Shown: one piece after another, positions 15,672 to 21,804 of the stretch | How the letters are laid out: each line of letters opens with the position of its first letter | How positions within the stretch are numbered: position 1 is the first letter of the stretch | DNA from: Streptomyces sp. B21-105 | GTDB lineage: Bacteria > Actinomycetota > Actinomycetes > Streptomycetales > Streptomycetaceae | DNA: 64,000 bases | Direction: 5' to 3' | NCBI RefSeq assembly: GCF_036898465.1 | Contig: NZ_JARUMJ010000001.1 | Coordinates: forward strand, 7,254,001-7,318,000 | Notes under the pieces: model-generated | Told to the model about the DNA's origin: nothing | Database searches by the model: none | What the model saw: the letters and a program-made list of their open reading frames with translations, nothing else | Made by a program: the position numbers and the translations under genes

Positions 15672-17201
15672 TCAGATGTCCCGGAAGATCTCGATCTGCG
15701 CGCCGATCGAGTTCAGCCGCTCGGCCAGATCCTCGTAACCGCGGTTGATGACGTACACGTTGCGCAGCACGGACGTGCCTTCCGCCGCCATCATCGCCAG
15801 CAGGACGACCACGGCGGGGCGCAGGGCCGGCGGGCACATCATCTCGGCGGCGCGCCAGCGTGTCGGGCCCTCCACCAACACCCGGTGCGGGTCGAGGAGT
15901 TGCAGACGCCCGCCGAGCCGGTTGAGGTCCGTGAGGTAGATGGCCCGGTTGTCGTACACCCAGTCGTGGATGAGGGTCTTGCCCTGGGCGACGGCCGCGA
16001 TGGCCGCGAAGAACGGGACGTTGTCGATGTTCAGGCCGGGGAACGGCATCGGGTGGATCTTGTCGATCGGCGCCTCCAGCTTGGAGGGCCGTACCGTGAG
16101 GTCCACCAGCCGGGTGCGGCCGTTGTCGGCCGGGTACTCCGGCGTGCGGTCGTGGTCCAGGCCCATCTCCTCCAGGACCGCCAGCTCGATCTCCAGGAAC
16201 TCGATGGGCACCCGCCGCACCGTCAGCTCCGACTCCGTGACGACGGCGGCGGCCAGCAGACTCATCGCCTCGACCGGGTCCTCGGAAGGGGAGTAGTCCA
16301 CGTCCACGTCGATGTCCGGCACGCCGTGCACGGTGAGCGTCGTGCTGCCGATGCCCTCGACCCGGACGCCGAGCGCCTCCAGGAAGAAACACAGATCCTG
16401 GACCATGTAGTTGGAGGAAGCGTTACGGATGACAGTTACCCCGTCGTACCGGGCGGCCGCCAGCAACGCGTTTTCGGTAACCGTGTCGCCGCGCTCGGTC
16501 AGCACGATCGGCCGGTCCGGGCGGACGGCGCGGTCGACGACGGCGTGGTACTGCCCCTCCGTCGCCGCGACGTCCAGCCCGAACCGGCGCAGGGCGATCA
16601 TGTGCGGCTCGATGGTCCGGGTCCCGAGGTCGCAGCCGCCCGCGTAGGGCAGCTTGAAGTGGGTCATCCGGTGCAGCAGCGGACCGAGGAACATGATGAT
16701 GGAGCGCGTGCGCACGGCGGCCTCGGCGTCGATCGCCGCCATGTCCAGCTCGGCCGGCGGCACGATCTCCAGGTCGACGCCGCCGTTGATCCAGCGCGTC
16801 CGTACACCGATGGATCCGAGGACCTCGAGCAGCCGGTAGACCTCCTCGATGCGGGCGACCCGACGCAGCACCGTGCGCCCCTGGTTGAGCAGCGACGCGC
16901 ACAGCAGGGCCACGCACGCGTTCTTGCTGGTCTTCACGTCGATCGCGCCGGACAGCCGGCGGCCGCCCACGACCCGCAGATGCATCGGCCCCGCGTAGCC
17001 CAGAGAGACGATCTCGCTGTCCAGGGCTTCACCGATGCGAGCGATCATCTCAAGGCTGATGTTCTGGTTGCCCCGCTCGATGCGGTTGACGGCACTCTGG
17101 CTGGTTCCGAGCGCCTCGGCCAGCTGTGCCTGTGTCCAGCCCCGGTGCTGCCGGGCGTCACGGATGAGCTTGCCGATGCGTACGAGGTAGTCGTCTGCCA
17201 T
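15672..17201 (-). CDS. murA2: XRE HTH domain fused to a MurA-type UDP-GlcNAc 1-carboxyvinyltransferase
   Basis: This 509-aa two-domain protein has an XRE helix-turn-helix at residues ~8-65 (WTQAQLAEALGTSQSAVNRI) followed by an EPSP/MurA-type domain. MurA catalytic residues are kept: K93-N94 (KTSKNACVAL, equivalent to Lys22-Asn23), the PEP-attacking cysteine C190 (PYAGGCDLGTR, Cys115) and D393 (NIDNVPFF, Asp305). It may therefore transfer enolpyruvate to UDP-GlcNAc, the first committed peptidoglycan step, and also bind DNA. From memory, the S. coelicolor counterpart next to aconitase is SCO5998. An inverted repeat lies 13-28 bp upstream of its start and suggests autoregulation. Confidence 0.9.
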   Translation of the reverse strand: MADDYLVRIGKLIRDARQHRGWTQAQLAEALGTSQSAVNRIERGNQNISLEMIARIGEALDSEIVSLGYAGPMHLRVVGGRRLSGAIDVKTSKNACVALLCASLLNQGRTVLRRVARIEEVYRLLEVLGSIGVRTRWINGGVDLEIVPPAELDMAAIDAEAAVRTRSIIMFLGPLLHRMTHFKLPYAGGCDLGTRTIEPHMIALRRFGLDVAATEGQYHAVVDRAVRPDRPIVLTERGDTVTENALLAAARYDGVTVIRNASSNYMVQDLCFFLEALGVRVEGIGSTTLTVHGVPDIDVDVDYSPSEDPVEAMSLLAAAVVTESELTVRRVPIEFLEIELAVLEEMGLDHDRTPEYPADNGRTRLVDLTVRPSKLEAPIDKIHPMPFPGLNIDNVPFFAAIAAVAQGKTLIHDWVYDNRAIYLTDLNRLGGRLQLLDPHRVLVEGPTRWRAAEMMCPPALRPAVVVLLAMMAAEGTSVLRNVYVINRGYEDLAERLNSIGAQIEIFRDI

Positions 17202-17213
17202 GAGGCTGAGGTT

Positions 17214-17229
17214 ATCTCAGATATGAGAT
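17214..17229. promoter_or_regulatory. Inverted repeat ATCTC-N6-GAGAT upstream of the XRE-MurA gene
   Basis: ATCTCAGATATGAGAT is an imperfect palindrome immediately upstream of the murA2 start (minus strand). The same ATCTC-N6-GAGAT layout occurs before aconitase at 18942-18957. Placement is compatible with an operator for the XRE domain of the adjacent protein. Confidence 0.55.
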
Positions 17230-17265
17230 CGCGCATCCTGAGGGGGCCGTTCGGGTGACATGCCG

Positions 17266-17466
17266 TCAACGCCGCCTGGCGTGACGGGTACGACGCCAGC
17301 CGAAAGGTCCGGGCAAATCCATCGATGTCGTACGACGTCCAGTGCTGCTGTGTGTCTGACGCGGCCCGTGCCGGCCGCCGCCGGTCGTGATCGACCAGGA
17401 ATGCCGGTTGATGTTCAGCCGCACACCGGGGAGGATGCGGAAACTCTTGCGGAAAGTGAGGGGCAT
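17266..17466 (-). CDS. DUF4236 small protein
   Basis: This 66-aa protein begins MPLTFRKSFRILPGVRLNIN, the hallmark of DUF4236 proteins, followed by STGRRTTSMDLPGPFGWRR. A strong AAGGAGG sits 5 bases before the ATG, so this short frame is real. Function of the family is unknown; the N-terminus is thought to form a small beta-fold. It lies on the same strand as the MurA fusion and 64 bp upstream of it, with the inverted repeat in between. Confidence 0.75.
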   Translation of the reverse strand: MPLTFRKSFRILPGVRLNINRHSWSITTGGGRHGPRQTHSSTGRRTTSMDLPGPFGWRRTRHARRR

Positions 17467-17825
17467 CGGGCCTCCTTCGTCCGGGGAGTGCTTGTCCGCT
17501 CTCGTCTACCCCGACCGGGCGGGCCCATGGCGCGCGTTCAGGAACCGTCCCGCCGTAACGCTGTCGCGCCGCCACCCGTCGCGCACAGCGCGGTCACGCC
17601 GCCACCGTGTGCCGCGCGTCGGCCGGCCGTTTGTCCGGCCGGCAGAACGGCGTCGGTCGAGGATGTACGGGGCTCCGTACGGGCGGGCGAGTGCTTCGCG
17701 AACCGGCGGTTTTCCCGCCCTGGACGGCGTGGGCGGCCGGCGCGGCGGCTGTCGTCTCAACTGGGCTGACTGGTCCGTTGTCGGCGTTTCCCATAGGGCC
17801 AGTGGAAGGGCATACGAGATTGAGC
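17467..17825. other. Intergenic region, divergent DUF4236 and kinase genes
   Basis: This 359-bp stretch has no supported gene on either strand. The frames present are uninterrupted by chance in high-GC DNA and lack start context. It must hold the two divergent promoters, but no operator-like palindrome was recognised. Confidence 0.5.
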
Positions 17826-18725
17826 ATGCACGATGACCAAGTGGACGTGACCACCGAAAAAGTTACGACCTTGATCCACGAACAGTTTCCCCAGTGGAGC
17901 GGCGAGGCGATCCGACCCCTGGCGTCGACCGGGACGGTCCACGCCATTTTCCGCATCGGAAACGACCTCTCTGCGCGTTTCCCCCTGCGTCTGGCCGATG
18001 CTGCCGAGGTGCTGGCGGTCCTGGAACAGGAAGCCCGGGCGAGCGCGGAGCTGGCACAGGTGTCTCGGGTCCCCGCCCCGGAGCCCGTCGCCCTGGGAAA
18101 GCCGGGAGCGGGTTACCCCATGCCGTGGTCGGTCCAGACGTGGTTGCCGGGGACGATCGCCTCCGATGCCGACCCGAGCGGATCGGACGCTTTTGCCGAG
18201 GACCTCGCGGCCTTCATCGCGGCCCTGCGGGACGCCGGGACGCGGGGGCGGCATTTCAGCGGCGCACATCGTGGCGGCGTTCTCGCTCACCACGACGAGT
18301 GGATGGCGAAGTGCTTCGAGGAGAGTGCGGAGCTGCTCGATGTGCCCCGGCTGCGCCAGGTGTGGAGCCGCTTTCGCACCTTGCCGCGCGCGGGTGCCGA
18401 CGTGATGAGCCATGGTGACTTGATTCCCGGCAATGTACTTGTCGCGGGAGGCCGGCTCAGCGGCGTGCTCGACACCGGCGGCTTCGGCCCGGCCGACCCC
18501 GCGCTGGATCTGGTCAGTGCCTGGCACCTCTTGCAGTCGGGCCCGCGGGAAGTGCTCCGGCGGAGACTCGACTGTGACGATCTGGAGTGGGAGCGCGGCA
18601 AGGCGTGGGCGTTCGAACAGGCGATGGGGGTCGTCTGGTACTACGTCGAGAGCAATCCGACGATGAGCGCGATGGGGCGGCGGACGCTCGCCCGCATTCT
18701 GGAGTCGATGGGTGACGCGCCCTGA
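17826..18725 (+). CDS. Aminoglycoside phosphotransferase-family kinase (APH)
   Basis: This 299-aa protein-kinase-like phosphotransferase carries the catalytic loop MSHGDLIPGNVL with D198 and the metal-binding DTGGFGPADPALDL segment. It belongs to the broad APH family, whose members phosphorylate antibiotics, sugars or other small molecules. The N-terminal nucleotide-binding part (IFRIGNDLSARFPLRL) lacks an obvious lysine, as in many Streptomyces paralogues. The ATG at 17826 was chosen because the family domain begins about 10 residues later; longer frames upstream read as low-complexity. The substrate is unknown and antibiotic resistance is not implied. Confidence 0.82.
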   Translation: MHDDQVDVTTEKVTTLIHEQFPQWSGEAIRPLASTGTVHAIFRIGNDLSARFPLRLADAAEVLAVLEQEARASAELAQVSRVPAPEPVALGKPGAGYPMPWSVQTWLPGTIASDADPSGSDAFAEDLAAFIAALRDAGTRGRHFSGAHRGGVLAHHDEWMAKCFEESAELLDVPRLRQVWSRFRTLPRAGADVMSHGDLIPGNVLVAGGRLSGVLDTGGFGPADPALDLVSAWHLLQSGPREVLRRRLDCDDLEWERGKAWAFEQAMGVVWYYVESNPTMSAMGRRTLARILESMGDAP

Positions 18726-18940
18726 GCGTCGGCCGGCGGCGACAGAGACGATCGCGTGCCGCCCCAGCGACAACAGCACCGATGGGAAACGACCGGCCGA
18801 GCCGGGACACCTCGGCCCGTTTCAGGAAACTACTGAGCGCGGACCGCGGCCCCCGTGGCGAGCGATCCTCAGACGCCTGGATCGGATGACAGCGGACAGG
18901 CGAGCCCGGGCATGACCATCCAGCCCCTATGTACTAGAGT

Positions 18941-18958
18941 TATCTCGACATCGAGATA
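18941..18958. promoter_or_regulatory. Perfect palindrome in the aconitase promoter region
   Basis: TATCTCGACATCGAGATA is an 8-bp perfect inverted repeat with a 2-bp spacer, about 130 bp before the acnA start. Its ATCTC-N6-GAGAT core matches the repeat before the XRE-MurA gene. MarR- or TetR-type regulators also use operators of this shape. Confidence 0.6.
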
Positions 18959-19000
18959 TCTGCCGAAGGCGCACCGCAGCCGTCGTTCAGTAAGGGTTAC

Positions 19001-21804
<2,804 letters not shown>

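Follow-up and report, generated by a model that had tools for sequence, protein, structure and literature searches.

The locus and its features

The window analysed here is a 64-kb stretch of the 9.2 Mb genome of Streptomyces sp. B21-105, and its subject is a gene that encodes a MurA, the enzyme of the first committed step of cell-wall synthesis and the target of fosfomycin, fused to a DNA-binding domain of the XRE type. Two short palindromes lie nearby, ATCTCAGATATGAGAT (17214-17229) in front of the fusion gene and ATCTCGACATCGAGAT (18942-18957) in front of an aconitase gene, each preceded by TT on the plus strand, as a preliminary description of this DNA had noted. They have the pattern ATCTC-N6-GAGAT in common, are its only matches in the window, and are non-random by a shuffle control of the window (n = 100), in which the pattern occurs 0.01 times on average and never twice in one shuffle. 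The preliminary description took them for one operator, through which the fusion protein, possibly sensing UDP-GlcNAc/PEP status, may repress both its own gene and aconitase. Comparison across genomes strengthens the self-regulatory half of this proposal, which would extend well beyond Streptomyces, and speaks against the aconitase half: judged by their sequences and relatives, the palindromes are two distinct operators and not a shared one. The features on which the argument turns are the following.

15672..17201, minus strand: XRE-MurA fusion gene, 509 amino acids, orthologue of SCO5998/murA2 by neighbourhood and literature (Pfam, PRK09369)
17010..17177, minus strand: XRE/Cro-type helix-turn-helix (HTH), residues 9-64, recognition-helix motif TSQSAVNRIE (Pfam, HTH comparisons)
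15687..16985, minus strand: MurA domain, residues 73-505 (motif residues, Foldseek)
17213..17230, minus strand: predicted fusion-gene operator GATCTCATATCTGAGATA (minus-strand reading), consensus TATCTCA-N4-TGAGATA (conservation)
17209..17214, minus strand: predicted -10 box TAACCT, its first TA common with the operator, 7 nt from the ATG (TAnnnT conservation)
18941..18958, no strand: aconitase-promoter palindrome TATCTCGA-CA-TCGAGATA, predicted TamR-type operator (pattern matches, conservation)
19072..21804, plus strand: aconitase AcnA, SCO5999 orthologue (TIGR01341, 1309 bits)

The XRE-MurA fusion

The two domains described earlier are confirmed by Pfam matches to HTH_3 (residues 13-64) and EPSP_synthase (79-496), and the first palindrome does lie 13-28 bp before the start codon, whose A is at 17201 on the minus strand. 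The protein scores above the cut-off of PRK09369 (312 bits, cut-off 297) and below that of TIGR01072 (299 bits, cut-off 392.7), and its HTH is weakly matched by NF006015 (34 bits, cut-off 204). The nearest solved relatives of the HTH are DBP48, C.AhdI, C.BclI and HipB. In a Foldseek search with an AlphaFold2 model, the best 42 matches are all MurAs; the model (31-row alignment; mean predicted local distance difference test score 79.9, with HTH blocks scoring 36-66) served only to confirm the MurA fold.

The fusion is widespread. Within the genus, 198 of 199 genomes give a best match of E <= 3.0e-217, as a fusion would give, the listed best matches being full-length or nearly so, and the fragmented genome G050 gives only 1.1e-35. 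In other families of the class, orthologues of about 64-86% identity are found. The gene is split over two reading frames at the loci L103 (genome G275) and L104 (G397); in G275 this split gene is the only MurA, and the split may be a sequencing or assembly error. Conserved neighbours of the fusion were also sought across families, by clustering the open frames of 43 loci. This gave lineage-specific groups and was otherwise swamped by spurious high-GC frames, so no conclusion on neighbours is drawn from it.

A conserved operator in front of the fusion gene

The promoter comparison covers 93 loci for which a start codon was assigned (52 from Streptomyces including our own, 41 from elsewhere), in each case the candidate nearest to the aligned start; all 93 differ in promoter sequence. 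The split gene L104 was omitted from the operator counts, and the frameshifted L103 (389 amino acids) is included among these 93 rows and not among the 92 used for residue counts. A site of the form CTCA-N4-TGA(G/T), followed by any base and T, occurs within 60 bp upstream in 51 of the 52 Streptomyces loci and 39 of the 41 others, compared with about 1-2 per 10,000 shuffled upstream sequences, and the loci that bear it span ten family groups.

The letters CTCA, TGA and one T are demanded by the search pattern and are therefore not independent evidence of invariance; the independent letters are the A of the final TA and the rest of the -10 box. That A follows the pattern in all 90 operator-bearing loci. 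In 87 of them, a TAnnnT hexamer starts at this TA, and in 84 of the 90 the start codon comes 6-8 nt after the hexamer. From this usual spacing, the promoter is probably leaderless, with the operator fronting and overlapping the edge of the predicted -10 box, where a bound protein would be in a repressing position.

A second collection, consisting of the best 80 of 584 confirmed loci (2 of which overlap the first set), was drawn from Streptomyces, Kitasatospora, Actinacidiphila, Nocardioides, Aeromicrobium, Mumia, Janibacter, Knoellia, Terrabacter, Ornithinimicrobium, Brachybacterium, Allokutzneria and others. Here, strict site and intact recognition helix occur together at 67 loci, 12 have the intact helix only, and 1 has neither. 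At four loci of Ornithinimicrobium and Serinicoccus (L206, L208, L209, L210), the operator region reads TATCTCATATATGTGATCTA, with one half-site altered and the helix intact, which is possibly an operator variant with shifted spacing.

Ownership of the operator

Several observations connect the site with the XRE domain of the protein encoded behind it. In its strict form, it is absent from the 400 bp upstream of all 18 canonical murA genes compared. It is also usually present once per genome, which fits single-target autorepression: ATCTCAN4TGAGAT occurs at one place in 92, at two in 21 and at none in 8 of 121 Streptomyces genomes (the backward control pattern in 1 of 121), and TATCTCAN4TGAGWTA occurs at one place in 56 and at none in 3 of 59 Nocardioides genomes (control 0 of 59), adjoining the 5' side of the fusion gene in all four Nocardioides genomes whose positions were checked (G258, G272, G475, G241). 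The recognition helix is degenerate, without the motif SQSAxxRxE, at three loci, L098, L103 and L235 (Arsenicicoccus bolidensis), and the operator is missing at all three; such a joint loss is what binding of the site by the XRE domain would predict.

The geometry is also familiar. HipB autoregulates through TATCC-N8-GGATA, according to the part of the source that describes this site (PMC3376134), and the fusion site, TATCT-N8-AGATA, is built in the same way. HipB and the XRE proteins C.AhdI and C.BclI have related HTH domains; they are, however, small stand-alone proteins, whereas the HTH of the fusion is part of a biosynthetic enzyme. Taken as sequence comparison allows, the palindrome in front of the fusion gene is very probably bound by the XRE-MurA protein that this gene encodes.

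The gene itself is not new to the literature, here cited for the portions that concern it. SCO5998 has been named MurA2, with a DmdR1 site predicted between SCO5998 and SCO5999 (PMC12161575), and its promoter proved SigB-dependent when tested heterologously (PMC8346170); its counterpart sven5810 is a BldM-WhiI target (a Group II gene) with a footprint (PMC4125116), and overexpression of murA2 did not reproduce the effect of whiI (PMC11005364). The present gene is taken to be the same by its SCO5999 neighbourhood and by a BldM-WhiI motif, found with one mismatch. With up to two mismatches, 40 of the 52 Streptomyces fusion promoters contain this motif, compared with 0.7% of shuffled sequences and none of 42 loci from elsewhere. 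The published treatment differs from ours in that the portions cited deal with murA2 as an enzyme gene and do not mention an HTH domain, an operator or autoregulation. Among the matches listed in the literature searched, whose coverage left most subscription papers outside, a description of the HTH or of autoregulation of this MurA was not found. Two further features belong to this account.

17243..17258, plus strand: predicted BldM-WhiI-type activator site GGGGCCGTTCGGGTGA, one mismatch to TGnnCCGnnCGGGTGA (motif from the cited portion of PMC4125116)
19001..19019, minus strand: weak iron-box-like sequence, candidate DmdR1 site (14/19 to an iron-box consensus; by the same consensus, another 14/19 match lies at 18986)

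With BldM-WhiI, SigB and DmdR1 already reported or predicted at the locus, one may ask whether the operator is owned by some other, unlinked regulator while the XRE domain has a different role. We consider this unlikely, given that the site tracks the fusion through ten family groups and stays away from canonical murA genes, is usually single in a genome, is missing where the helix has degenerated, and has the geometry of the HipB site.

Some findings nevertheless weigh against self-binding and against the promoter model. The case is genuinely weakened by the 12 of 80 loci where the helix is intact and the strict site is degraded or absent; 9 of them keep the left half TATCTCA and L280 keeps the right half, and L217 and L258 retain little of either. 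The same combination of intact helix and degraded or absent strict site is found at the Streptomyces locus L055. The three degenerate-helix loci look like one lineage, and their loss is therefore probably a single event. A second site is present in 21 of 121 Streptomyces genomes, the start codon of L101 lies 35 nt after the -10 box, so that the promoter is not leaderless there, and the owner of the operator could be a different regulator inherited along with the fusion. As an observation on the second sites, an identical palindrome, ATCTCAACGTTGAGAT, lies away from murA2 in at least four Streptomyces genomes (G114:C697:23337, G119:C100:75, G039:C11:13209 and G021:C24:73578).

Enzyme or sensor

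The preliminary description held that all catalytic residues of the MurA domain are kept. This is right for nine residues with catalytic or ligand roles, K22, N23, R91, C115, R120, D305, R331, R371 and R397 (E. coli numbering by motif), each present in 92 of 92 full-length fusions, and has to be amended at the position of E. coli Asp369. That position is Pro in all 92 fusions and Asp in the reference and in 18 of 18 canonical MurAs. In addition, R236, E192-P193-E194 and T308 (5u4h numbering), which are invariant in 19 of 19 canonical sequences, are replaced in at least 90 of the 92 fusions.

These replacements, together with the second, canonical MurA of our own Streptomyces (L113, C1:3733608-3734906), would suit a MurA domain that has died as an enzyme and acts purely as the sensor of a repressor. 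This is again unlikely, and slightly more so than an unlinked owner of the operator, since Cys115, Lys22, Asp305, Arg397 and five more residues are kept without exception and only 17 of 45 chosen genomes with a fusion have any MurA that passes the TIGR01072 cut-off. In the other 28, the fusion is the best match (about 300 bits, below the cut-off; in two pieces in G275) and nothing else exceeds 54 bits, the residual matches being presumably AroA; as the 45 genomes were picked partly for having few MurA matches and not at random, 28 of 45 is not a rate. By family group, the fusion is the sole MurA in 22 of 24 genomes of f26, to which Nocardioides (genus g39) belongs, in 2 of 2 of f42 and in 4 of 4 of f33, which is Dermatophilaceae-like by its closest named relatives. 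These bacteria make peptidoglycan, and the fusion, as their sole recognisable MurA, is therefore very likely an active enzyme; with Asp369 and other active-site residues changed, it is from this sole-MurA status that catalysis is deduced. The Arsenicicoccus-type loci (L098, L103, L235) point the same way, having retained the MurA domain while the HTH decayed and the operator disappeared, and they represent a natural loss of the regulatory half. As a side observation, the canonical MurA of our strain contains an insertion in the RECLGG...FLHS region that is absent from the fusion and from the canonical MurA of L176.

The aconitase palindrome

The idea of a single ATCTC-N6-GAGAT operator through which the bound fusion protein controls both genes and couples wall precursors to the tricarboxylic acid (TCA) cycle is attractive, with two neighbouring genes whose sites are each conserved in Streptomyces and have identical outer 5-mers. 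The inner letters, however, differ. The fusion site is of the type CTCA-N4-TGAG and the aconitase site of the type CTYGA-NN-TCRAG, and these stricter patterns pick out each site separately in our genome. ATCTCGACATCGAGAT is the core of the 18-bp dyad TATCTCGA-CA-TCGAGATA, so the longer palindrome described at aconitase exists (18941-18958) and falls short of being strictly perfect, as its two central bases do not pair. The full type is ATCTYGA-NN-TCRAGAT.

A scan of the whole genome for ATCTC-N6-GAGAT finds 10 places (the pattern read backward, 1), and the conservation of the fusion and aconitase sites proves to be that of two separate types. The 8 other places each lie inside at least one open frame, often a long one with a high GC content at third codon positions, and look coding for that reason, by a heuristic that is rough enough for the real murA2 operator to score positive as well. 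Reading the pattern as a regulon is thus unsupported.

The aconitase palindrome has a better-fitting candidate owner. In S. coelicolor, aconitase is repressed by the MarR protein TamR, according to the part of a review that treats it (PMC5487221). In our genome, the pattern ATCTYGANNTCRAGAT has exactly two exact matches, one at aconitase and one at C1:3962619. This second place is about 40 bp away from the best match to trans-aconitate methyltransferase (tam-like; 260 bits, below the family cut-off of 297) and precedes a divergent MarR-family gene (L041:1566-2060; MarR by Pfam), a layout that, by its gene content, is the tam/tamR arrangement. Allowing one mismatch, the 300 bp ahead of aconitase contain a TamR-type site in all 30 Streptomyces loci examined, always as ATCTCGACATCGAGAT, and in 25 of 30 loci of other genera, compared with 0 of 6000 shuffles; allowing two, it is found in 26 of the latter 30, and two of the four misses had less than 150 bp of upstream sequence to examine. 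The arms in other genera are mostly ATCTTGA-NN-TCAAGA(T/G).

The fusion-type site behaves quite differently. With up to one mismatch allowed, none of 60 loci, 8 of which offered less than 250 bp, has it in the 400 bp preceding aconitase. More distant occurrences were seen in 10 Streptomyces loci, where the spacing matches that of the site belonging to the adjacent fusion gene, and in locus L131, with a single one at -756. In other genera, aconitase was not found near the fusion within 3 kb upstream (1.5 kb for L071 and L072). Because other genera mostly have ATCTTGA arms and, in the loci compared, no nearby fusion-type site, the ATCTC...GAGAT letters common to both sites look like a coincidence of Streptomyces.

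The aconitase palindrome fits the operator of the known repressor TamR, whose binding to it is predicted here, and the likeness extends to the aconitase gene, the tam-like and divergent MarR layout, and the only other exact match being there. Unlike the model it replaces, the TamR system accounts for the aconitase palindrome only. To the extent that comparison can decide, the palindrome probably belongs to a MarR-type regulator, an outcome that the preliminary description had itself named as contrary to its proposal, and joint control of the fusion gene and aconitase is very improbable. That both palindromes are functionless chance similarities, as their short arms might suggest, is practically negligible next to the shuffle control and to a conservation of each site far above that of shuffled upstream sequences.

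Between the two promoters lies one more gene, a bystander, and the distance from the murA2 palindrome to the aconitase palindrome, with this gene in between, differs among Streptomyces.

17826..18725, plus strand: APH-family phosphotransferase gene (Pfam APH)

A model of MurA2 autoregulation

The explanation that best fits these comparisons, and that we regard as probable, is that the fusion is an autogenously repressed MurA, acting with its own XRE domain on one 18-bp operator, and that a different operator, one of the TamR type, accounts for the aconitase palindrome. It draws on the distinction between the two operators, their deep conservation, the promoter geometry, the usual single site per genome, the one lineage in which helix and operator were lost together, and the sole-MurA status; from these we infer XRE binding, repression, the dimer, the leaderless start, catalysis and ligand control. 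As MurA2 accumulates, its XRE domains would bind the operator TATCTCA-N4-TGAGATA, probably as a dimer, and the bound protein, where it overlaps the -10 box, would block RNA polymerase and thereby limit how much MurA2 is made. Streptomyces promoters would in addition have BldM-WhiI bound close by on the upstream side (positions -42 to -57 relative to the predicted start), driving murA2 against this limit in sporulating hyphae, and the presence of a second, classical MurA together with this added activator site suggests that the fusion serves there as a developmental MurA2. A ligand at the MurA active site may tune repression or release the DNA; a homeostat that responds to concentration only is equally compatible with the data.

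A further-reaching version can be put forward tentatively for Nocardioides and, by extension, Aeromicrobium and Dermatophilaceae. In these bacteria, the sole enzyme that commits carbon to peptidoglycan may be its own single-target repressor, which would bind or leave DNA according to whether its active site is free, bound to UDP-N-acetylglucosamine, or covalently occupied at Cys115 and hence responsive to fosfomycin; the enzyme would be active without the Asp369 that is conserved in the other MurAs examined.

Relation to known systems and significance

Metabolic enzymes that repress transcription through a DNA-binding domain of their own are known as trigger enzymes, with BirA and PutA as examples. 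Like them, the fusion has DNA-binding and enzyme domains of its own, and it has a conserved operator-like site in a repressing position; its repression and its effector are predicted, and both the enzyme and the HTH differ from those of BirA and PutA. Regulators of the BoxR/BzdR type combine an XRE domain with a shikimate-kinase-like domain. They resemble the fusion in joining XRE to an enzyme-like domain, whereas the second domain of the fusion is a MurA and apparently still an enzyme. An enzyme with its own repressor domain is therefore known in principle, and the MurA instance appears to be undescribed in the literature searched.

For further work, the locus offers a testable operator, Arsenicicoccus as a case of natural loss, and an active site without a conserved acidic residue, and its comparison corrects the attractive but wrong idea that the fusion controls aconitase. 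What appears instead is a putative dedicated operator that has been kept in ten family groups, in some of which the fusion is the sole MurA. If the autoregulatory reading is true, the entry into cell-wall synthesis would regulate itself at the level of transcription in a large group of soil bacteria that includes antibiotic producers.

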